Shown: positions 26,108 to 34,533 of the stretch, in pieces
Layout of the letters: each line of letters begins with the position of its first letter
How positions within the stretch are numbered: the first letter of the stretch is position 1
Assembly (NCBI GenBank): GCA_017448825.1
Contig: JAFSKR010000002.1
Span: 1-64,000, forward strand
Reading direction: 5' to 3'
DNA: 64,000 bases
Source: Bacteroidaceae bacterium
GTDB taxonomy: Bacteria; Bacteroidota; Bacteroidia; Bacteroidales; Bacteroidaceae
Made by a program: the position numbers and the translations under genes
Notes under the pieces: model-generated
What the model saw: the letters and a program-made list of their open reading frames with translations, nothing else
What the model was told of the DNA's origin: nothing
The model's database searches: none

Positions 26108-27613
26108 TTATCGTTTCTGCACGTCTGCCACAATCTTCTGAAGCGCGATGACCAGGCGGTCCACTTCCTCCTTGGTATTATAGACGGCAAACGTGGGACG
26201 TACTGACATCTCGTAGCCGAGGGCTCGCAGGGCTGGCTGGGCGCAGTGATGACCTGCACGGACAGCGATGCCCTCTTTATCGAGCAGTTGTCCCACTTGG
26301 GGAGCGGGAATGCCGGGGATGTCGAGAGAGATGACACTCACGCGCTTCTTGGGGTTGCCCATGATGGTGATGCCCGGAATGCGGCTAATCTGCTGACGGG
26401 CATACTCGGTGAGTTCGTGTTCGTGGCGTTCGATGTTGTAGATGCCAACACTCTGCACGAAGTCAAGCGCATAGCCCAGTCCGATGGCATCGGCAATGTT
26501 GGGTGTGCCTGCCTCGAAACGTGCGGGTGGGGCGTTGAACTCGGTGTGCTCAATGGTCACGTCCTTAATCATGTTTCCACCACCCTGCCAGGGCGGCAGT
26601 TGTTCGAGCCACTCCTTCTTGCCATACACCACTCCGATGCCTGAAGGCCCATAGATTTTGTGGCCTGAGAAGACGAAGAAGTCGCAGTCAAGGTGTTGCA
26701 CGTCCACCTTCGTGTGGGCAATGGATTGTGCGCCGTCGATGAGCACGGGGATGTTGTGGGAGTGTGCCGTGCGGATGATGCTCTCCACGTCGTTGATGGT
26801 GCCGAAGGTGTTGTTGACGTGCCCCACGCTGATGAACTTGGTGCGTGGCGTGATGAGCCTTTCCAGTTCCGAGAGGATGAGGTCACCGTTCTTGTCAATG
26901 GGGATGGCACGGAGTTCTGCCTTTTGCTGCTTGCACACTTGCTGCCACGGCACGATGTTGGCGTGGTGGTCGAGCGTGGAGACAATCACGTTGTCGCCCT
27001 CTTCCAAGAACTTTCTGCCGAACGTCTGTGCCACCAGGTTGATGCCTTCTGTCGTGCCACGCACAAAGAGAATGTTCTCCTTGGCAGGGGCATTGATGAA
27101 GTGTGCCACCTTCTCACGGGCTCCTTCATATTGGTCGGTGCTGCGAGCTGCCAAGGTGTGGGCACCACGGTGAATGTTCGAGTAGTCCGTCTTATAGAAC
27201 TCGCTCAACCCGTCGATGACACGCAGCGGCTTCTGAGTGGTCGCCCCATTGTCGAACCACACGAGGTCGTGACCGTTCACCTTCTGGTGGAGGATGGGGA
27301 ACTGCTTGCGAATTTCGTCGGTGCTGACCGTGTCAGCCTCGTCGTAGTGGAGGTTGCGCACGATGTCCGTCTCGGGAATGCCGATGCCGAAACCATTGTC
27401 AGAGAAGGAAAGCCCCCCGTCCCCCAAAGGGAGAGGGCTACCGCCTTGTTGGCCACGAGAAGTCAATTCCTTCAGCAGAGAGACACCGCGACAGTCCTCT
27501 TCCTTTGGGGGCTGGGGGGAGTCGTCCGAGAAGTATTTAGCGACGACACCCTTGAAGAGCTCCTCGTCAGCGTGGCTGAGCAATCCCGTTTTATCTAACT
27601 CGTTCAGATACAT
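26108..27613 (-). CDS. Cysteine desulfurase (SufS-like), probable encapsulin cargo
   Basis: A PLP enzyme that removes sulfur from cysteine as a persulfide. Group II (SufS/CsdA) features are complete: YFDNGATTQKP-like VWFDNGATTQKP, PLP lysine K319 in FSGHKIYGPSG, and catalytic C457 in RAGHHCAQP. The catalytic body starts near residue 98, whereas ordinary SufS starts almost at its first residue. The 98-residue extension is unlike SufS proteins and resembles, in position and low complexity, the shell-targeting region of desulfurases loaded into Family 2 encapsulins. Residues ~32-67 are translated from a repeat element (27413-27519). The gene begins 1 nt after the encapsulin stop, so co-translation is likely. 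No sufBCD genes are nearby, which argues against a general Fe-S role. Confidence 0.92.
   Translation of the reverse strand: MYLNELDKTGLLSHADEELFKGVVAKYFSDDSPQPPKEEDCRGVSLLKELTSRGQQGGSPLPLGDGGLSFSDNGFGIGIPETDIVRNLHYDEADTVSTDEIRKQFPILHQKVNGHDLVWFDNGATTQKPLRVIDGLSEFYKTDYSNIHRGAHTLAARSTDQYEGAREKVAHFINAPAKENILFVRGTTEGINLVAQTFGRKFLEEGDNVIVSTLDHHANIVPWQQVCKQQKAELRAIPIDKNGDLILSELERLITPRTKFISVGHVNNTFGTINDVESIIRTAHSHNIPVLIDGAQSIAHTKVDVQHLDCDFFVFSGHKIYGPSGIGVVYGKKEWLEQLPPWQGGGNMIKDVTIEHTEFNAPPARFEAGTPNIADAIGLGYALDFVQSVGIYNIERHEHELTEYARQQISRIPGITIMGNPKKRVSVISLDIPGIPAPQVGQLLDKEGIAVRAGHHCAQPALRALGYEMSVRPTFAVYNTKEEVDRLVIALQKIVADVQKR
27413..27519. repeat. 107-bp MITE-like element inside the desulfurase N-terminus
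   Basis: Terminal inverted repeats of 18 bp (27413-27430 and 27502-27519) match at 16 positions; each has a CCCCC...CCTTTGG or complementary G-rich core. The element sits in frame in the coding sequence and supplies about 36 residues (Pro, Gly, Lys and Glu rich). The structure suggests insertion of a small non-autonomous element. Confidence 0.7.
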
Positions 27614-27614
27614 T

Positions 27615-29054
27615 TTACTTTTCTATTTTATTACGGTGCTGATAGTCATGATAGTAGCCTACCTCCACGTTCTCCAGCACGGCAATGGCGTCGTCGGTGA
27701 GAGACGCGAGGCTGAAGTACTTGGTGAGCAGGTAGCTGGCCACGCCGTATTGGTCGAGACCCATGAGGCGTGCTGAGAGGCTTGGGGCGATTTCGCCTGG
27801 GATGCCTGCCTGGTGCAGACCTACCACTCCTTGCTCTTTCTCGCCTGTGCGCACGAGGATGATGTCTGTCGTGCCCACACCGCGGTTGGTCAGATACTGA
27901 CCCTTCACTTCCACCTTGTCAGATGGGATGATGGGCACACCGCGCCAAGTGATGACCTTGGTGCCGAAGAGGTCGATGGCCACAGGAGGCACGCCACGCC
28001 AGGTGCATTCGCGCTCGAAGGCCGCGATGGCGCGTGGATTGGCGATGAAGAAGGCAGGTTCTTTCCATACGAGTGAAAGCAGTTCGTCCAAGTCGTCTGG
28101 AGTCGGAGCCCCATAGCGTGTACTGATTTTGTAGCCTGGGGCTGTCTGGGCGAGGAGACCGAACTTCTTGTTGTTGATGAGTTCCCACTCTTGTCGCTCC
28201 TTGATGCTTTCGATGGAGAGGCGGAGCTGCTGTTCGAGCTGGTTGTAGGGGGCATTGTAGAGGTCGCTGACGCGGGTGTGTACGCGCACCACGGTCTGCA
28301 GGGTGTTGAGCGAGTATTCCGTGGGGTTCTCCTCGTAGTCGATGTAGGTTTCGGGGATGATGTTGTCCTCCTCATGGCCGCTCACCAGGTCGATGTGCTT
28401 CTCGCCATGCTCGTTGACGGTGGCCTTGAGGCGCAGCTGCTTGTCCACGGCACCCGTGAACTGCTCACGGAAGTCGGGGATTTCCTCAATGAGCGACTCC
28501 AGCACGGGGGTGTCGAGCACCAGGAACACCGAGTCGGTGACGGAGCGGACGCTGACAGTGGAGTCGGCGGCACTCAGGAGGTCGGCCTCGCCGAAGTACT
28601 CGCCGTTGCCCAAAAGTGCGATGCGCAGTTCTTCGCCGTGAGTGCCTGTGCTGATGACCTCGGCCTGACCATTTGCCACGATGAAGAAACGCTGCTTGTC
28701 CTTGCCCTGCGTGACGAGGTTCTTGCCGCGTGCGACTTCCACGGGCACGAAGTTACGGGCCAAACGTGCTACGATCTCCTGCTTGATGTTCTGGAAGAGC
28801 GGGATGGCGCGGAGGTTCTTCGCCGTGAAGCTTGGCACGCCGTCGAAGTACTGAATCTCGATGCGTTCCGCCTTTTTCAGTTCCACCTTGGTGCGGTTGA
28901 CGCGGTAGGTGCCGCTTTCCACCTGTGTCCAGGGAAGGAGCTTGAGGAGGAGCCTCGGTGTGATACTGCCCATCTGTGGAGGGGTCTTGGTGGTGTTCGC
29001 CAGTTTGCGAGCTGTCGCAGTCGTGATGCTGCGCTGAATGTTGTTGTCTGCCAT
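27615..29054 (-). CDS. Family 2B encapsulin shell protein
   Basis: The 479-residue protein has the hallmarks of Family 2 encapsulins (SrpI-like HK97-fold shells). The N-arm reads TARKLANTTKTPPQMGSITP and is followed by LLPWTQVESGTYRVNR; the C-terminal half (about 240-479) contains YGAPTPDDLDELLSLVWKEP and LSARLMGLDQYGV, typical of the coat fold. A cyclic-nucleotide-binding-type domain is inserted at about residues 78-210 (FIVANGQAEVI, FGEADLL), which defines subfamily 2B. The phosphate-binding cassette lacks the usual Arg after FGEADLL, so nucleotide binding may be altered or lost. The next gene is the probable cargo enzyme. Assembly into an icosahedral compartment is expected from the family. 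Confidence 0.92.
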   Translation of the reverse strand: MADNNIQRSITTATARKLANTTKTPPQMGSITPRLLLKLLPWTQVESGTYRVNRTKVELKKAERIEIQYFDGVPSFTAKNLRAIPLFQNIKQEIVARLARNFVPVEVARGKNLVTQGKDKQRFFIVANGQAEVISTGTHGEELRIALLGNGEYFGEADLLSAADSTVSVRSVTDSVFLVLDTPVLESLIEEIPDFREQFTGAVDKQLRLKATVNEHGEKHIDLVSGHEEDNIIPETYIDYEENPTEYSLNTLQTVVRVHTRVSDLYNAPYNQLEQQLRLSIESIKERQEWELINNKKFGLLAQTAPGYKISTRYGAPTPDDLDELLSLVWKEPAFFIANPRAIAAFERECTWRGVPPVAIDLFGTKVITWRGVPIIPSDKVEVKGQYLTNRGVGTTDIILVRTGEKEQGVVGLHQAGIPGEIAPSLSARLMGLDQYGVASYLLTKYFSLASLTDDAIAVLENVEVGYYHDYQHRNKIEK

Positions 29055-29108
29055 GATTAAATTTACAGTTTAATGATTTACTATTATTTACAATTGGATG
29101 ATTTACCA

Positions 29109-29507
29109 TTATCTCAGCGGATACTTCTCCTTCACTTCGCCGTCCACGATGCGGAAGGCGTTCAGTGCGGGCTTTTCCTCTGCCAGCGAGAGGATGAAGT
29201 AGAGGATGTTGGGGTCGAGCGCCAGCCGCTTGTCCTCCTCCGACGGACGCGAGGGAGAGGCTGGATGGCTGTGCCAGTTGCCCACGATGGTCAGCCCTTT
29301 CCTGCGGGCATACTTGATGGCGGCGAACTGCTCCTTGGGGTCGAAGCTGAAGTGCTCTTCGGAGTGGTCGGCATTCGTCATGGGATAGTTCTCCGTTGCC
29401 GTCTCCTTGTCCGTGCCGAGCAGGTAGCCGCACGACTCCACGGGTGCATCCTTCTGCGCCTGTGCCAGGATGGACTGATAGGTCGATTCGGTGATGATTA
29501 CGTTCAT
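29109..29507 (-). CDS. JAMM/MPN+ metalloprotease (Mec+/HcyD/QbsD-like)
   Basis: This 132-residue protein is a stand-alone JAMM domain. The zinc site is complete: E24, then HSHPASPSRPSEED giving His79, His81, Ser89 and Asp92 in the H-x-H-x7-S-x2-D pattern. Bacterial JAMM proteins encoded beside ThiS-like carriers trim residues after the carrier's Gly-Gly and release the cysteine or homocysteine attached to it. The carrier in this operon indeed has three residues beyond its glycines. It lies 4 nt after the TusA-like gene and 54 nt before the encapsulin gene. Confidence 0.92.
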   Translation of the reverse strand: MNVIITESTYQSILAQAQKDAPVESCGYLLGTDKETATENYPMTNADHSEEHFSFDPKEQFAAIKYARRKGLTIVGNWHSHPASPSRPSEEDKRLALDPNILYFILSLAEEKPALNAFRIVDGEVKEKYPLR

Positions 29508-29511
29508 GTGT

Positions 29512-29736
29512 TTACTTCAATATCGTTACTTTGTGTACGTTGCCCTCCACGTGTTCCACGCTGAGGACATTGTAGCCCTGCTCCCTGGCCGAGCGGGGGA
29601 CGTTCTCCAGAGGTTCACCCTCGGTGAGGAGTACTTCGAGCGTGTCGCCGGCCGCCAACTGTGCCAGCTTGAGCTTTGTCTTCACGAATGTCATCGGACA
29701 ATGCTCTTTCGTGATGTCGAGTGTGTGAGTTGCCAT
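29512..29736 (-). CDS. TusA-like sulfurtransferase
   Basis: A 74-residue single-domain sulfur carrier of the TusA/SirA family, with the signature CPMTFVKTKLKL in which Cys13 is expected to hold persulfide sulfur. The CP pair and the following helix are intact. Proteins of this type accept sulfur from cysteine desulfurases or DsrE-like partners, both of which are encoded in this operon. A large inverted repeat sits upstream of it, between it and the DsrE-like gene. Confidence 0.9.
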   Translation of the reverse strand: MATHTLDITKEHCPMTFVKTKLKLAQLAAGDTLEVLLTEGEPLENVPRSAREQGYNVLSVEHVEGNVHKVTILK

Positions 29737-29759
29737 GATTTCATTTACAATTTAGCATG

Positions 29760-29820
29760 TACAATGTACAATTTGCCATGCGGCTTGCTTGCATCGCGTC
29801 AGCCTAAATTGTACATTGTA
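29760..29820. repeat. Inverted repeat between DsrE-like and TusA-like genes
   Basis: A perfect 15-bp inverted repeat (29760-29774 TACAATGTACAATTT and 29806-29820) encloses a 31-nt loop that itself could fold. It lies in the longest gap of the distal operon (104 nt) and may set RNA processing or expression differences between the proximal and distal genes. No T-run follows. Confidence 0.65.
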
Positions 29821-29840
29821 AATGGTACATGATACATTTT

Positions 29841-30320
29841 TTATATAAACAAAGTTTGTCCTCCCTCGCTGATTTGCAGGAAGGTAGCCACGCCCAGCAC
29901 GTCCTTCACCTCATGGATGAAGTCCCTCTTCTCCAGCCCGAGCACGTGCATCGCCATCTCACACGCATAGAGGTTCACGCCCAGCGCATTGGCGGCATCG
30001 ACGAGCTCTTCCAGCGTCGCCACATTGTTCTTCTTCATCAGGTGGCGGAACAACCGTGGCCCGATGCCCCAGAAGTTGAAGCGGCTGGTCGGCGTCGCGC
30101 TCAGTCCGCCCATCATGAAGCCGAACATCTTGGTCAGCCAGTTGCCCCCCGTGAAGCTGCGCCCCCGCTTCTGCTTGATGGCATCCAAACCCCAGAAGGT
30201 GAAGAAGATGTTTACCTCATACCCCACCGCCGCCGCACCCGTCGCCAGGGTGAACACAGCGGTCAGCTTGTCGAAGTCGCCCGAGAAGGCAATCAATGAA
30301 AGTTTCTTCTGTTCAGCCAT
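29841..30320 (-). CDS. DsrE/DsrF/DrsH-like family protein
   Basis: The 159-residue protein matches the DsrE-like family that carries or transfers sulfur. It starts KKLSLIAFSGDFDKLTAVF and has the family core FFTFWGLDAIK and LYACEMAMHVLGL, in which Cys120 is the expected sulfur-binding residue. Members partner with TusA and rhodaneses. The gene begins 3 nt after the E1-like gene ends, consistent with translational coupling. A direct role in passing sulfur from the encapsulated desulfurase to TusA or to the thiocarboxylate carrier is inferred. Confidence 0.88.
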   Translation of the reverse strand: MAEQKKLSLIAFSGDFDKLTAVFTLATGAAAVGYEVNIFFTFWGLDAIKQKRGRSFTGGNWLTKMFGFMMGGLSATPTSRFNFWGIGPRLFRHLMKKNNVATLEELVDAANALGVNLYACEMAMHVLGLEKRDFIHEVKDVLGVATFLQISEGGQTLFI

Positions 30321-30323
30321 GTG

Positions 30324-31139
30324 TCAATGCTTTTTGAGGTCGCAAGCGGCCTGTTCATAATCAATCAGTTCCTTAACCGAAGGGTTCGCGCCGCAGATGG
30401 GGCACTTGTCCGTCTTCCTCACGTTAATCTTGCGGAAGTCCATCGTCTTCGCGTTGAAAGTCAGCAACTTGTTGGTGAGCAGCTCGCCCACACCCGTCAG
30501 AAACTTCAGCGTCTCCGCAGCCTGAATCGTGCCGAGCATACCGGCGATGGCGCCCAGCACCCCAGCCTGGCTGCACGTGGGAACCGCTCCCGGTGGCGGC
30601 GGAGACTTGAACATGCAGCGGTAGCAAGCCGAGCCCGGCACATGCGTGAACGTCTGACCCTCAAACCTGAGGATGCCGCCATGACTGAACGGCTTGCCAG
30701 CCATCACGCAGGCATCGTTAATCAGAAACTTCACGGGGAAATTGTCGGTGCCGTCCACCACGAAGTCATACTCCCTGACAAGGTCGAGCGCGTTGTCCGC
30801 CATCAGGAACTCGCGATGAGTCTCCACCCTCACGTGGGGATTGATGGCGTTGATGGTCTCCTTGGCAGACTCCACCTTCCACTTGTCCACGTCCGCCGTG
30901 GTGTGGATAATCTGCCGCTGCAGGTTGCTCAAGTCCACCACATCGCCATCCACAATGCCGATGGTGCCCACGCCCGCCGCAGCCAAATACATCGCAACCG
31001 GCGCGCCCAGTCCGCCAGCCCCGACCACGAGCACCCGGCCCTGCCGAATCCGCTCCTGCCCCTCCACGCCAACGTCCTGCAAGAGAATGTGGCGCGAGTA
31101 ACGCTGAAGCTCCTCTTCTGAGAAATCAAACATACGCAC
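30324..31139 (-). CDS. MoeB/ThiF/HesA-type E1-like adenylyltransferase
   Basis: The enzyme adenylates the C-terminal glycine of a ubiquitin-like sulfur carrier. The nucleotide loop VGAGGLG is at residues 39-45; the zinc site is formed by Cys172, Cys175, Cys246 and Cys249 (CYRC and CPIC); and Cys189 in PTCSQAGVLG is the candidate active Cys. The 271-residue length is that of MoeB without a rhodanese domain, so sulfur must come from another protein or from free sulfide. Its start overlaps the end of the ThiS-like gene by 14 nt, marking the pair as a unit. No molybdenum-cofactor genes are nearby. Confidence 0.93.
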   Translation of the reverse strand: MRMFDFSEEELQRYSRHILLQDVGVEGQERIRQGRVLVVGAGGLGAPVAMYLAAAGVGTIGIVDGDVVDLSNLQRQIIHTTADVDKWKVESAKETINAINPHVRVETHREFLMADNALDLVREYDFVVDGTDNFPVKFLINDACVMAGKPFSHGGILRFEGQTFTHVPGSACYRCMFKSPPPPGAVPTCSQAGVLGAIAGMLGTIQAAETLKFLTGVGELLTNKLLTFNAKTMDFRKINVRKTDKCPICGANPSVKELIDYEQAACDLKKH

Positions 31140-31341
31140 CTCCTCCCATGAAATAAAGGAAATCCACCTCGTCCCCGTCCTTCAGCTGAAGCGTCGAGAA
31201 CTCCTCACGGTCAACGAACTCCTCGTTCACCTGCACACTCACCATGTCAGGCTGAGCCACATGGTTCTCTCTGATGACATCTGCCACCGTGGCAGGGAGC
31301 AGCACCTCCTGCTCCCCACCGTTTACAATCAATTTTGCCAT
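31126..31341 (-). CDS. ThiS/MoaD-like sulfur carrier protein with C-terminal extension
   Basis: This 71-residue beta-grasp protein (MAKLIVNGGEQEVLLPATVADV in outline, then DGDEVDFLYFMGGG) ends in GGG-Ala-Tyr-Val. Ordinary ThiS and MoaD end exactly at Gly-Gly. The three extra residues must be removed before activation, as in carriers processed by JAMM proteases in thioquinolobactin, homocysteine and cysteine pathways. No thiamine genes are near; instead the neighbours are an E1-like enzyme, a JAMM protease and two sulfhydrylases, so the carrier most likely delivers sulfur to amino acid synthesis. Confidence 0.9.
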   Translation of the reverse strand: MAKLIVNGGEQEVLLPATVADVIRENHVAQPDMVSVQVNEEFVDREEFSTLQLKDGDEVDFLYFMGGGAYV

Positions 31342-31371
31342 GATAATGAAGTTTTTTGTCTATAACAAATT

Positions 31372-32307
31372 CTATTCCTCTGAAAAAAGCGGCGTGCTCA
31401 AGTAGCGTTCGCCAGTGTCGGGCAGCAGCACCACGATGGTCTTGCCCGCATTCTCCGGGCGACGGGCAACCTCGATGGCGGCATGAGCCGCCGCACCGCT
31501 GCTGATGCCCACCAGCACACCCTCCGTCTTAGCCAACTGACGGGCCGCGGCGAAGGCATCCTCGTTCTTCACACGGAAAATCTCGTCATACACAGCCGTG
31601 TTCAGCACCTCCGGCACGAACCCCGCACCGATGCCCTGCAACTTGTGAGGCCCAGGCTTGCCACCCGACAGCACCGCCGAGTCCGTTGGCTCCACAGCCA
31701 CCACCTTCACCCTGGGGTTCAGCCCCTTCAGCACCTCGCCCACACCCGTGATGGTGCCGCCCGTACCCACGCCAGCCACGAAGATGTCCACCCTCCCAGC
31801 CGTGTCTTCCCAAATCTCCTTGGCGGTCGTCTCACGGTGAATCTGCGGATTAGCCTCGTTCACAAACTGTTGGGGAATGAACGCGTCAATCTCGGCAGCC
31901 AACTCCTGCGCCTTGCGGATGGCGCCCGGCATCCCTTCATAGGCAGGCGTGAGCACCAGCCTTGCACCAAGGCTCCTCAGGAGCGTCCTGCGCTCAATGC
32001 TCATGCTGTCGGGCATCGTCAGGATGAGCTTGTAGCCACGCCGCGCAGCCACCAGAGCCAGCGCCACACCCGTGTTGCCGCTGGTAGGCTCGATGATGAC
32101 GGTGCCACGATTGAGCAAGCCCTGTCGCTCCGCCTCCGCTATCAAGGCATAACCCACGCGGTCCTTCACGCTTCTGCCAGGGTTCAGATACTCCAGCTTC
32201 GCCAATATCCGCGCTTGAAGCTTCTGCTTCTTTTCTGTTTTTGAGAGTTCCAACAGTGGTGTCCTGCCTATCAGTTCCACCAAGCTGTTTGCTATCTTTC
32301 TTGCCAT
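31372..32307 (-). CDS. Cysteine synthase (O-acetylserine sulfhydrylase)
   Basis: A PLP enzyme of the CysK/CysM fold that makes cysteine from O-acetylserine. The PLP lysine is K48 in NPGRSVKDR, the substrate loop TSGNTG is at residues 75-80, and the glycine-rich [10 protein letters not shown] phosphate loop is intact. The 311-residue length is standard. It lies 30 nt before the sulfur carrier gene. In mycobacteria a similar enzyme (CysM) accepts sulfur from a carrier thiocarboxylate rather than from sulfide; the same is possible here but cannot be read from the sequence. Confidence 0.93.
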
Positions 32308-32405
32308 AGTTGTATGAAGTTTTTTTAGTCGTTAAATCTGCTGCAAAGTTCGTTGTTTTCAGCCAATCCCGAAATCCCATCTGTATGGTAATCTCCCTAC
32401 CCTGT

Positions 32406-33683
32406 TTATGGTAGGCTCTCCACCGCCTGCACGATGTCCGCAAAGATGTCCTCCACATCTTCCAGCCCCACAGAGAGGCGGATGGTGGTGTCCTTCACAT
32501 CCATCGCCTCCTTCTGGCTTCGGCTGAAAGGACCAAAGATGGTGCTGTAAGGATGGATAGCGAGACTCTTATTGTCAAACAAATTCGTCGCCCTTCGGAT
32601 GAGTCTGAGATGGTCGATGAAGTGGAAACAAGCCCGCTTGTCCGCCAGGTCAATCGTCAGCATCGCACCGCTCGTTTCGCCAAACTGCCTGCGAGCCAAG
32701 GCATAGAAAGGATTATCCTCCAAGCCGATGTAGTTCACCCGTTTGATTTCAGGCACACCCCGCAACTTCCTTGCCAATGCCAGCGCATTGGCCGACTGCA
32801 CCCGATAGCGAGCCTCCAGCGTCTCCAAGCCCAATGACTGCATGTACGCCGCATGAGGAGTCATATAACAGCCCACGTTAAAAATCAACTCGGAGCGGAT
32901 GCGCACCCCCACCTGCAGGAAGTGGCCATAGTCGATGACCAGCCCGCCCAACGAGGTTGCGCCGCCTGAGATGTACTTCGTGCTGCTCACCACCTCAATA
33001 TCCACACCCAATGCCTTAGCACTAAACTCAGTGAAGGGGATGATGGTTGTGTCGGCAATCAGCGGAACGCCGTGCCGGTGAGCGATGTCGGAAAGCGCAG
33101 CCAAGTCGGCCACTTCCATCTGCGGATTCGTCACAATCTCCAAGAAAAGACAGGCAGTCCCCTCATCGATGGCGGCTTCCACGGCCTCAAGGTCAAGCAA
33201 GTTCACCATACGGGTCTCCACGCCAAGCCGCCCCAACGTGTTCTTCATCAGCCCCACCGTGTTGCCAAACAAGTGGTTGGACGTAACAATGTTCTTTCCT
33301 GCCTCCACCACCGCCAGCAAAGCATTGGTGATGGCCGCCATGCCCGTGCCGAAAGCAAACACATTGGCCGCATCGGTCAAAGCCCTCACCGTGTCCTCCA
33401 GATGCATCACCGTCGGATTCATCATGCGCGAATAGTCGGGGGCGACGACACGCCCACAAAAGGCATCCGCCATATCCTTCGCCGTCTTGAACTCATACGC
33501 TGCCGTGTGATACACCGGCATCGCAATCGCCCCGTAAGCATCCTGCCGAGGCAGCGGCGTGTCTATTGCTATGGTACAGACCCCCTTTGTCCTGCGGACA
33601 TTTCCCCCTCGGTTCACCCCCCCAAGGGGAGAACCATCCGGACGGTTCCTGTACAGACTTTCACTTCTGTTTTCTTGATCCAT
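32406..33683 (-). CDS. O-acetylhomoserine sulfhydrylase-like PLP enzyme (MetY family)
   Basis: The 425-residue protein belongs to the Cys/Met metabolism PLP family. Landmarks are MPVYHTAAYEF, YSRMMNPT, FGTGMAAI and the PLP lysine K236 in SSTKYISGG. The family includes MetY, MetZ and cystathionine gamma-synthase; the arrangement with a carrier, an E1 and a JAMM protease favours MetY-like homocysteine synthesis, as in the Wolinella thiocarboxylate route. Residues ~13-35 (rich in Gly, Pro, Arg) come from a GC-rich repeat element, so the ATG at 33683 is uncertain; no other ATG fits before the conserved body. Confidence 0.87.
   Translation of the reverse strand: MDQENRSESLYRNRPDGSPLGGVNRGGNVRRTKGVCTIAIDTPLPRQDAYGAIAMPVYHTAAYEFKTAKDMADAFCGRVVAPDYSRMMNPTVMHLEDTVRALTDAANVFAFGTGMAAITNALLAVVEAGKNIVTSNHLFGNTVGLMKNTLGRLGVETRMVNLLDLEAVEAAIDEGTACLFLEIVTNPQMEVADLAALSDIAHRHGVPLIADTTIIPFTEFSAKALGVDIEVVSSTKYISGGATSLGGLVIDYGHFLQVGVRIRSELIFNVGCYMTPHAAYMQSLGLETLEARYRVQSANALALARKLRGVPEIKRVNYIGLEDNPFYALARRQFGETSGAMLTIDLADKRACFHFIDHLRLIRRATNLFDNKSLAIHPYSTIFGPFSRSQKEAMDVKDTTIRLSVGLEDVEDIFADIVQAVESLP
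33579..33643 (+). repeat. GC-rich hairpin repeat within the MetY-like N-terminus
   Basis: The element reads GACCCCCTTTGTCC at its start, has a TGTCC-TGC-GGACA hairpin, then TTTCCCCCTC and GGGGAGAACCAT near its end. It is homologous to the oppositely oriented copy at 33708-33760. It is translated in frame at the start of the MetY-like gene. Confidence 0.7.
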
Positions 33684-33760: not shown

Positions 33761-34420
33761 TCAAATATAGTATTCCACCATCTCCACCAATCCGGCACGC
33801 AAGGCATACTTCGTCGCCTCATACACCGTGTTCACCTTGATTTTGCGGAAGATGTTCTTCTTGTGCGTCGCGATGGTGTGGATGCTCGAATTGCGCTCTG
33901 CCGCCACCTCCTTCACCGACTTGCCCAGCGCGATGAGACGCAACACGTCGCGCTCGGTCGTTGTGAGCGGATCCCCGTGTTCTTGCAGCGCTGACGGCAT
34001 GAGCAACAAATTCGTCACCTGATGGCAAAGAAAGCGCACCCCCGTCACCGCACACTTCAATGCGGTGATGATTTCCTGCGCCGAATCGCCCTTCAGAATC
34101 ATGCTGAACTGCTGCTCCACGCTCAGCCGACGAATCAGCCCTTCCGTCAACTCATCGGAGAACACCACCCACAGGACGAAGGGGAAACGCTCGCTCAGGT
34201 TCAGCAAATCGTCACTGCTACCCAAGTCGAAGCACGTGTAATCTATCACCACCACCGACGAAGGGTTCTCCTTCAGTTCCGCAATTAGTTCCGCCCTGCG
34301 GCTGAGTTCCTTCACCGTCAACCCCTCCACATCCTTCAGGGCAATCCCCACCAGGGTCTTCAACCCCAACCGCGTGATGTCCTGATTGTCTGCCAAGATA
34401 ATATGTCTTGTCTCTTTCAT
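33761..34420 (-). CDS. LuxR/NarL-type response regulator
   Basis: The 219-residue protein has a receiver-like N-terminal domain (starts MKETRHIILADNQDITRLG; IDYT supplies the likely phospho-Asp; ILKGD the conserved Lys) and a C-terminal LuxR helix-turn-helix (TTTERDVLRLIALGKSVKEVA, then HTIATHKKNIFRKI). The start was placed at ATG 34420 because the receiver beta-strand begins there; an earlier in-frame ATG adds only a poorly conserved lead. No histidine kinase is next to it. It precedes the sulfur cluster on the same strand, separated by 77 nt, and may control it. Confidence 0.88.
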   Translation of the reverse strand: MKETRHIILADNQDITRLGLKTLVGIALKDVEGLTVKELSRRAELIAELKENPSSVVVIDYTCFDLGSSDDLLNLSERFPFVLWVVFSDELTEGLIRRLSVEQQFSMILKGDSAQEIITALKCAVTGVRFLCHQVTNLLLMPSALQEHGDPLTTTERDVLRLIALGKSVKEVAAERNSSIHTIATHKKNIFRKIKVNTVYEATKYALRAGLVEMVEYYI

Positions 34421-34533
34421 ACTGATAAAGTCAAAGTCTTTTTTCCATTCTGCTCGTCCCCCCACATAGCCAAACGAGTGCCAGTTCTACGCTTTCGTGG
34501 CGGATGAAGCGCTTCGAGCCATCATTTTGGGTG

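Follow-up and report, generated by a model that had tools for sequence, protein, structure and literature searches.

Protein-thiocarboxylate pathways and encapsulated cysteine desulfurases are the described systems closest to the operon reported here. In Mycobacterium tuberculosis, the CysO–CysM–Mec+ system has a sulfur carrier, a JAMM protease and a cysteine synthase encoded in one operon; HcyD and QbsD trim their carriers, MoeZ is rhodanese-fused, as the name of its model also says, and the HcyS–HcyF–HcyD–MetY pathway makes homocysteine. The latter, a thiocarboxylate pathway of Wolinella succinogenes, is cited in PMC6225789. Iyer 2006 (PMC1779556) describes a ThiS-like carrier, an E1-like enzyme and a JAMM protease (hereafter the trio) together with SirA/TusA and sulfate genes, including in Wolinella (operon class 4e), states that E1 proteins without a rhodanese domain are always accompanied by SirA, and proposes TusA in the role of rhodanese. 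As to encapsulins, 199 Family 2B desulfurase operons have been counted (Andreas and Giessen 2021, PMC8346489), and carrier transfer or storage have been named as alternative fates of the sulfur released by encapsulated desulfurases (PMC8049743). Here we describe an operon that holds both kinds of system, on a 64,000-nucleotide stretch of DNA from a Bacteroidaceae bacterium (contig JAFSKR010000002.1, positions 1 to 64,000; the window), whose source genome (G000) spans 2.95 Mb in 75 contigs and is 86% complete. Nine open genes, all on the minus strand, run from 33683 to 26108 in the order MetY, CysK, ThiS, E1, DsrE, TusA, JAMM, encapsulin and cysteine desulfurase. On balance we regard them as a single sulfur-handling system built of two modules, and we think it somewhat probable that the carrier receives its sulfur from the shell–desulfurase module and passes it on chiefly to MetY.

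The set was followed through the surroundings of related shells at 124 loci (80 public and 44 from further genomes; L220, L221 and L222 repeat public loci L059, L052 and L051), which came to 101 once identical encapsulin DNA was removed, the short copies L001–L031 and the short f18 loci L112–L141 being left out of this count. Near the shell gene, these 101 loci encode the desulfurase in 100 cases, DsrE in 99, TusA in 98, ThiS and E1 in 89 each, JAMM in 87, CysK in 82 and MetY in 79, and the shell and desulfurase genes adjoin each other in 100. Where at least 6 kb flanked the shell gene in each direction (53 full-flank loci), desulfurase, DsrE and TusA were present throughout (53/53 each), ThiS, E1 and JAMM in 50/53 each, MetY in 46/53 and CysK in 45/53; the complete nine-gene set was found in 36/53. 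Three loci lack the trio (L079, L080 and L168, from genomes G171, G199 and G049), and in these genomes JAMM occurs with ThiS and E1 elsewhere. Gene order took 18 forms: the trio lies upstream or downstream or is inverted, and MetY may stand on one side, on the other or divergently. Constant membership under changing order indicates that selection acts on the set as a whole. Pairwise distances among 51 members covary with those of the shell (desulfurase, r = 0.95; E1, 0.90; JAMM, 0.89; DsrE, 0.72; ThiS, 0.71), as common descent alone would also yield. Near-identical shells come from ruminant-gut metagenome-assembled genomes labelled Bacteroidaceae, Prevotellaceae or Bacteroidales.

The same association appeared across genomes. 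In a sample of 399 genomes of the family, with a shell called when PF19307 scored over its cut-off, 45 encoded a shell (a 46th match, in G124, was weak and counted as lacking one) and 48 had JAMM matches. JAMM occurred in 43 of the 45 shell genomes versus 5 of the 354 without a shell (Fisher's test, ~1e-49, a value that ignores kinship among the genomes). Neither of the shell genomes lacking JAMM is complete (G209, 78%; G230, 86%), and in both the shell lies close to where a contig ends; JAMM without a shell was found in G028, G039, G217, G236 and G360. Within the genus of the source genome the split was complete, JAMM being present in 21/21 shell genomes and 0/13 others. A draw of 295 genomes from the whole order contained seven with a shell over the cut-off, including the source genome, and five of the other six, all from beyond the family, encode an operon-type E1 (at least 70% identity), the sixth being G1024 (65% complete). 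Because the set is conserved across both loci and genomes, chance can be set aside. The preliminary description of this DNA had joined shell, desulfurase and carriers into one functional set; co-occurrence under shuffled order supports this well, with the gene set rather than a fixed order being what is kept, and shells with a desulfurase routinely lacking the carriers were not seen in close relatives.

Beyond this lineage the picture differs. DsrE, TusA and JAMM gave no match near the shell in 10 f18 and six f4/f6 (2A-type) shell–desulfurase loci, so the coupling is a trait of this Bacteroidales lineage and not of such shells generally. Two candidate occurrences of the trio were rejected. Matches to E1 of ~55% in G141 and G230 lie within thiamine clusters, judging by the adjacent genes, and among the f18 loci L192–L201 only L196, L198, L199 and L200 had matches to ThiS and E1, which we read as thiamine genes because those of L198, the sole annotated case, neighbour radical-SAM/BATS and ThiG-like genes. 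Loci L192–L201, from another class of the phylum, pair a shell of Family 2B size with a long-form desulfurase, and CysK lies upstream of both; in L198 a hexapeptide transferase also stands upstream.

The trio also exchanges its partner for sulfite reductase. In G028, it is clustered with genes for a substrate-binding protein, a transporter, PAPS reductase, CysN-like and CysD-like proteins, and a fusion protein; the fusion (L203:12670–15012) has 780 residues and combines sulfite reductase domains with a C-terminal TusA domain, to which the window TusA is 48% similar. The trio of G236 adjoins the same fusion, and that of G360 adjoins transporter genes, with the fusion on a separate contig. Long matches to the fusion were found in 9 of 80 chosen genomes, all nine with JAMM (G028, G236 and G360 without a shell; G023, G049, G183, G262, G274 and G294 with one), and none in 30/30 searched genomes lacking both shell and JAMM. 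Among the 45 shell genomes, 39 gave no long match, the remaining matches there running through the TusA part alone. The NIR_SIR domain (PF01077) had no match in 14 of 16 sampled shell genomes, including the source genome (13 of the 14 are at least 90% complete); the other two matched, as did G360 and 11 of 14 control genomes. Sulfite reductase and sulfate genes were likewise not found in the window operon. In an E1 tree of 45 sequences, whose support values were not inspected, some sulfite-reductase-linked E1 proteins fall within the shell-linked group and others beyond it, in keeping with partner exchange. As side observations, the sulfite reductase–TusA fusion hints at direct sulfur hand-over; genes for a substrate-binding protein and a transporter recur by the trio or in a sulfate cluster (L202, L203, L210 and L211, and more weakly elsewhere), and weak matches of this kind (20–28%) occur near some shell operons.

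Because the trio is paired with the fusion in relatives and 14 of the 16 shell genomes have no NIR_SIR match, the trio seems to have an alternative source of sulfur in shell, desulfurase and TusA. We infer that TusA is a common socket, plugged into sulfite reductase or into the shell–desulfurase module depending on the genome. The earlier proposal that the desulfurase feeds a thiocarboxylate carrier thus gains indirect support, from the same missing matches and from the TusA–sulfite reductase fusion. In G851, a genome of another family (99% complete), CysK, ThiS, DsrE, TusA, shell and long-form desulfurase stand together, and MetY, E1, JAMM and a sulfite reductase match lie ~20 kb away along that contig, in a cluster where ThiS gave no match; if the operon carrier is the sole one of its kind in this genome, then it must serve both clusters. 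Genes that appear nitrogenase-like in sequence lie beside the G851 shell operon (L217 and L235).

Several observations weigh against a shell that feeds the carrier. In five genomes the trio occurs without a shell, and three of these JAMM genomes have sulfite reductase, which by genomic context makes sulfide-derived sulfur an alternative feed. G039 (92% complete) keeps CysK, ThiS, E1 and JAMM (L204:1664–5299) with no shell match; its JAMM gene is followed by what resembles a serine acetyltransferase gene (a similar gene of L198 matched hexapeptide transferases), its SufS-like match is short and lies elsewhere, and its DsrE and TusA are short remnants, a picture that misassembly of the metagenome-assembled genome might produce. 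Judging by this case, a carrier module can persist once the shell is gone, and DsrE and TusA would seem to be parts of the shell module. MetY occurs at 76% identity in G141 and 63% in G042, both lacking shell and JAMM, so in some genomes this MetY does without the trio. The co-occurrence counts come from related genomes and are not independent events, for which reason we place most weight on gene reshuffling. Free sulfide from the gut environment could feed the trio directly, with no gene needed, and CysK and the desulfurase acting on the same sulfur would run in a futile loop if they were not separated in time.

Such points could be accommodated by two separate modules that are merely co-regulated, a reading we regard as possible though less probable than a shell that feeds the carrier. 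The encapsulin would store cysteine sulfur, with DsrE2 and TusA as its own outlet or inlet, the trio, MetY and CysK would assimilate sulfide, and the shared operon would answer sulfur supply, with no hand-over between the two. G039, with trio and CysK and no shell, fits this arrangement, as do the three genomes with trio and sulfite reductase and no shell, the other Family 2 desulfurase shells without carriers nearby, and the sulfate-assimilation genes that adjoin shell operons in L046, L057, L061, L064, L065 and L159. Sulfur storage is reportedly the subject of Benisch 2024. It is also a cited role of encapsulated desulfurases (PMC12407261). Mere co-regulation is harder to reconcile with a shell that, despite reshuffling, is nearly always accompanied by the trio in the family (43/45), with a dependence that holds also where NIR_SIR is unmatched (14/16), and with the carrier of G851, which is encoded within the shell operon and separately from its E1.

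For the shell as feeder of the carrier, we propose the following path, from loading of the desulfurase into the shell through every transfer step to the products. In the first module (shell, tagged desulfurase, DsrE2 and TusA), cysteine sulfur would be taken inside or at the encapsulin and would leave as protein-bound sulfane sulfur. The second module (ThiS carrier, JAMM and E1) would make the carrier thiocarboxylate: JAMM would remove the residues behind the carrier glycines, E1 would adenylate the carrier with ATP, and TusA and DsrE2 would deliver the sulfur, replacing the rhodanese domain or the sulfite reductase–TusA fusion used elsewhere. MetY would then use the carrier thiocarboxylate to yield homocysteine, and CysK most likely would regenerate cysteine from sulfide for the desulfurase. 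The genes on which this path is built are listed in Table 1.

Table 1 Genes of the operon and the gene next to it, in window coordinates
Feature	Position	Strand	Basis
MetY-like O-acetylhomoserine sulfhydrylase	32406..33683	-	Pfam Cys_Met_Meta_PP; best solved relative Wolinella succinogenes 3RI6
CysK, cysteine synthase A type, not CysM type	31372..32307	-	Pfam PALP; TIGR01139
ThiS-like ubiquitin-fold sulfur carrier, tail behind glycines	31126..31341	-	Pfam ThiS; TIGR01683
E1-like adenylyltransferase without rhodanese domain	30324..31139	-	Pfam ThiF only; motifs
DsrE2-like sulfur relay protein, conserved Cys	29841..30320	-	PF13686, 138 bits
TusA-like sulfur relay protein	29512..29736	-	PF01206
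JAMM (Prok-JAB) metalloprotease, proposed trimmer of carrier tail	29109..29507	-	PF14464; HxHx7SxxD
Family 2B encapsulin shell protein, cNMP-binding-like insert	27615..29054	-	NF041163
SufS-type cysteine desulfurase with N-terminal extension, candidate cargo	26108..27613	-	family models
LuxR/response-regulator-like protein directly upstream, may regulate the set	33761..34465	-	GerE domain

Pfam and NCBIfam models and the motif counts bear out the nine genes, families, coordinates and intact motifs of the preliminary description; DsrE_2, TusA, ThiS, ThiF, Prok-JAB, PALP and Cys_Met_Meta_PP all matched above their Pfam cut-offs. The run is close and not gapless, with ~98 nt between MetY and CysK and ~104 nt between DsrE and TusA, and E1 likely starts at an ATG at 31133, two codons inside the listed GTG, a start conserved in relatives. 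In 40 of 101 loci the surroundings of the shell contain a match to the LuxR/response-regulator-like gene, and the gene recurs beside MetY or the trio even without a shell (window 33761–34465; L203:7216–7857; L215); it is a candidate sulfur regulator.

The encapsulin passed the NCBIfam model encap_f2b (NF041163; 557 bits, cut-off 400) and matched Pfam SrpI-like (PF19307, 373 bits) with a cNMP_binding (PF00027) stretch at 105–190, and on these three matches we assign the shell to Family 2B, as the preliminary description had done. Its nearest solved chains are 9bje and SrpI 6x8m, and it is the one PF19307 match in the source genome. Control of the shell by cyclic nucleotides was considered and rejected, as the phosphate-binding loop, which reads ...STVSVR across the loci, lacks the arginine of true cyclic AMP sites. 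Family 2B inserts are also described as binding no cyclic nucleotides (PMC12407261).

The adjacent desulfurase, which starts 1 nt past the encapsulin stop (27613 versus 27615) and carries an N-terminal extension, both as first described, scores above the SufS family cut-off. The 2A-cargo model NF041166 falls below its cut-off (685 versus 800) and begins at residue 92, so that some 90 N-terminal residues lie outside it; this extension is shorter than in 16 long-form desulfurases examined (235–356 residues before the catalytic start). A motif FG[IVL][GD][IV]PE precedes the catalytic domain in 91 of 96 desulfurases, the remaining five reading FG[IV]GLPE, and the GHHCA motif is present in all 96 (here and for the motifs below, loci plus window). 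A LARLANEFFS-like helix was picked in many extensions as a weak signal, 9 of 56 non-redundant extensions beating shuffles at p<0.05. We judge it very improbable that the desulfurase serves another acceptor (Fe–S clusters, thiolated tRNA or cofactors) with the carrier genes as passengers: SufS-type enzymes generally feed Fe–S assembly, and yet the source genome has a second, untagged SufS homologue (48% identity) and the set persists through its 18 arrangements.

The carriers and their partners retain the features that the proposed path would use. The window carrier (TIGR01683, 57 versus 37.5) ends in ...FLYFMGGG-AYV, and a tail behind FMGG(G) was seen in 89/89 loci, from one to forty residues long, mostly one to three, the longest possibly being mis-set frames; the one thiamine ThiS example seen ends at GG, with no tail. 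A tail behind the glycines is what a trimming JAMM would need, cleavage being predicted from sequence, and the JAMM motif HxHx7SxxD is intact in 87/87. E1 (271 amino acids, a single ThiF domain, no rhodanese domain; nearest PDB chains MoeB, ThiF and Uba4) keeps its PTCS and paired CxxC motifs in 89/89, TusA has the HCP motif in 95/99, and DsrE has its Cys in 99/100, the window DsrE2-like protein scoring below the NF047629 cut-off (72 versus 210).

The two end enzymes bear on the products. MetY is nearest to the solved enzyme 3RI6 (358 bits; next, 231), a nearness in sequence only, and falls below the TIGR01326 cut-off (305 versus 495), whereas another MetY of the same genome (contig C14) is nearest to different enzymes (510 bits; 3RI6, 254). 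The organism of 3RI6 is Wolinella (PMC11568248). CysK passes TIGR01139 cysK (455 bits versus 351) and falls below CysM model cut-offs (TIGR01138, 277 versus 394), and its solved relatives are ordinary CysK, which counts against the earlier idea that thiocarboxylate serves the synthesis of both amino acids: MetY speaks for its homocysteine half, and the cysteine half is unsupported. Rather improbable is the version in which the encapsulin is a rechargeable depot, filled with cysteine sulfur in times of plenty, from which TusA and DsrE2 draw sulfur for thiocarboxylate synthesis of both homocysteine and cysteine in anaerobes without sulfate reduction. The source genome also encodes two more full-length MetY family members and a second CysK (62%), the latter adjoining the contig C14 MetY; with these and the extra SufS at hand, the copies in the operon are free to take on a specialised role.

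The same enzymes would also fit an alternative transsulfuration without storage, in which CysK turns sulfide into cysteine and the sulfur passes via desulfurase, TusA and ThiS to MetY for homocysteine, the shell merely insulating the desulfurase from the cysteine pool. This overlaps with the path we prefer and differs in the role of the shell. By sequence CysK is of the ordinary sulfide type, MetY is nearest to 3RI6 and the route is linear, with no futile loop; we nevertheless consider it improbable, as the two other MetY members and the second CysK mean that a direct sulfide route should exist. The original reading is thus partly supported: it is kept as one system, with the cysteine claim weakened and sulfite reductase added as an alternative source.

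The operon names candidate acceptors (TusA and DsrE2, then the ThiS carrier) and two end enzymes for shell-released sulfur, and its presence in many gut Bacteroidales suggests where that sulfur may go; because the acceptors are named in relatives of cultivable-type gut Bacteroidales, the question of sulfur fate becomes directly testable. Partner exchange, if true, would show how a single carrier module can draw on more than one source of sulfur. The operon also joins two fields, encapsulins and thiocarboxylate/TusA, that do not meet in the literature searched.

Compared with known systems, the operon shares with CysO–CysM–Mec+ a carrier, a JAMM protease and a cysteine synthase in one operon, and differs in its CysK-type synthase, its E1 without rhodanese and its tailed carrier. 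With the Hcy pathway and class 4e (PMC1779556) it shares the tailed ThiS-like carrier, JAMM, E1 without rhodanese, TusA/SirA and a 3RI6-type MetY; there the sulfur source is sulfite reduction, whereas the window operon has an encapsulin and a desulfurase instead. SrpI–CyD of Family 2A/2B (Nichols 2021, PMC8049743; PMC8346489) has the same shell fold and an adjacent SufS-type desulfurase with an N-terminal extension. Its accessories are serine acetyltransferase and rhodanese, in contrast to DsrE2, TusA, ThiS, E1, JAMM, CysK and MetY here, and its extension carries AASPYYFLDG (PMC8049743), whereas the present one is shorter and has FGxGIPE. The main text of PMC8346489 has no mention of TusA, DsrE, sulfur carrier, ubiquitin or JAB, and its supplement could list such neighbours; some of the 199 operons counted there may be of the present type. 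The literature searched contained no encapsulin with thiocarboxylate and none with TusA, which the supplements of PMC8346489 and PMC8049743 could list. Both halves of the operon are thus of known kinds, and their union seems new as far as that literature goes.

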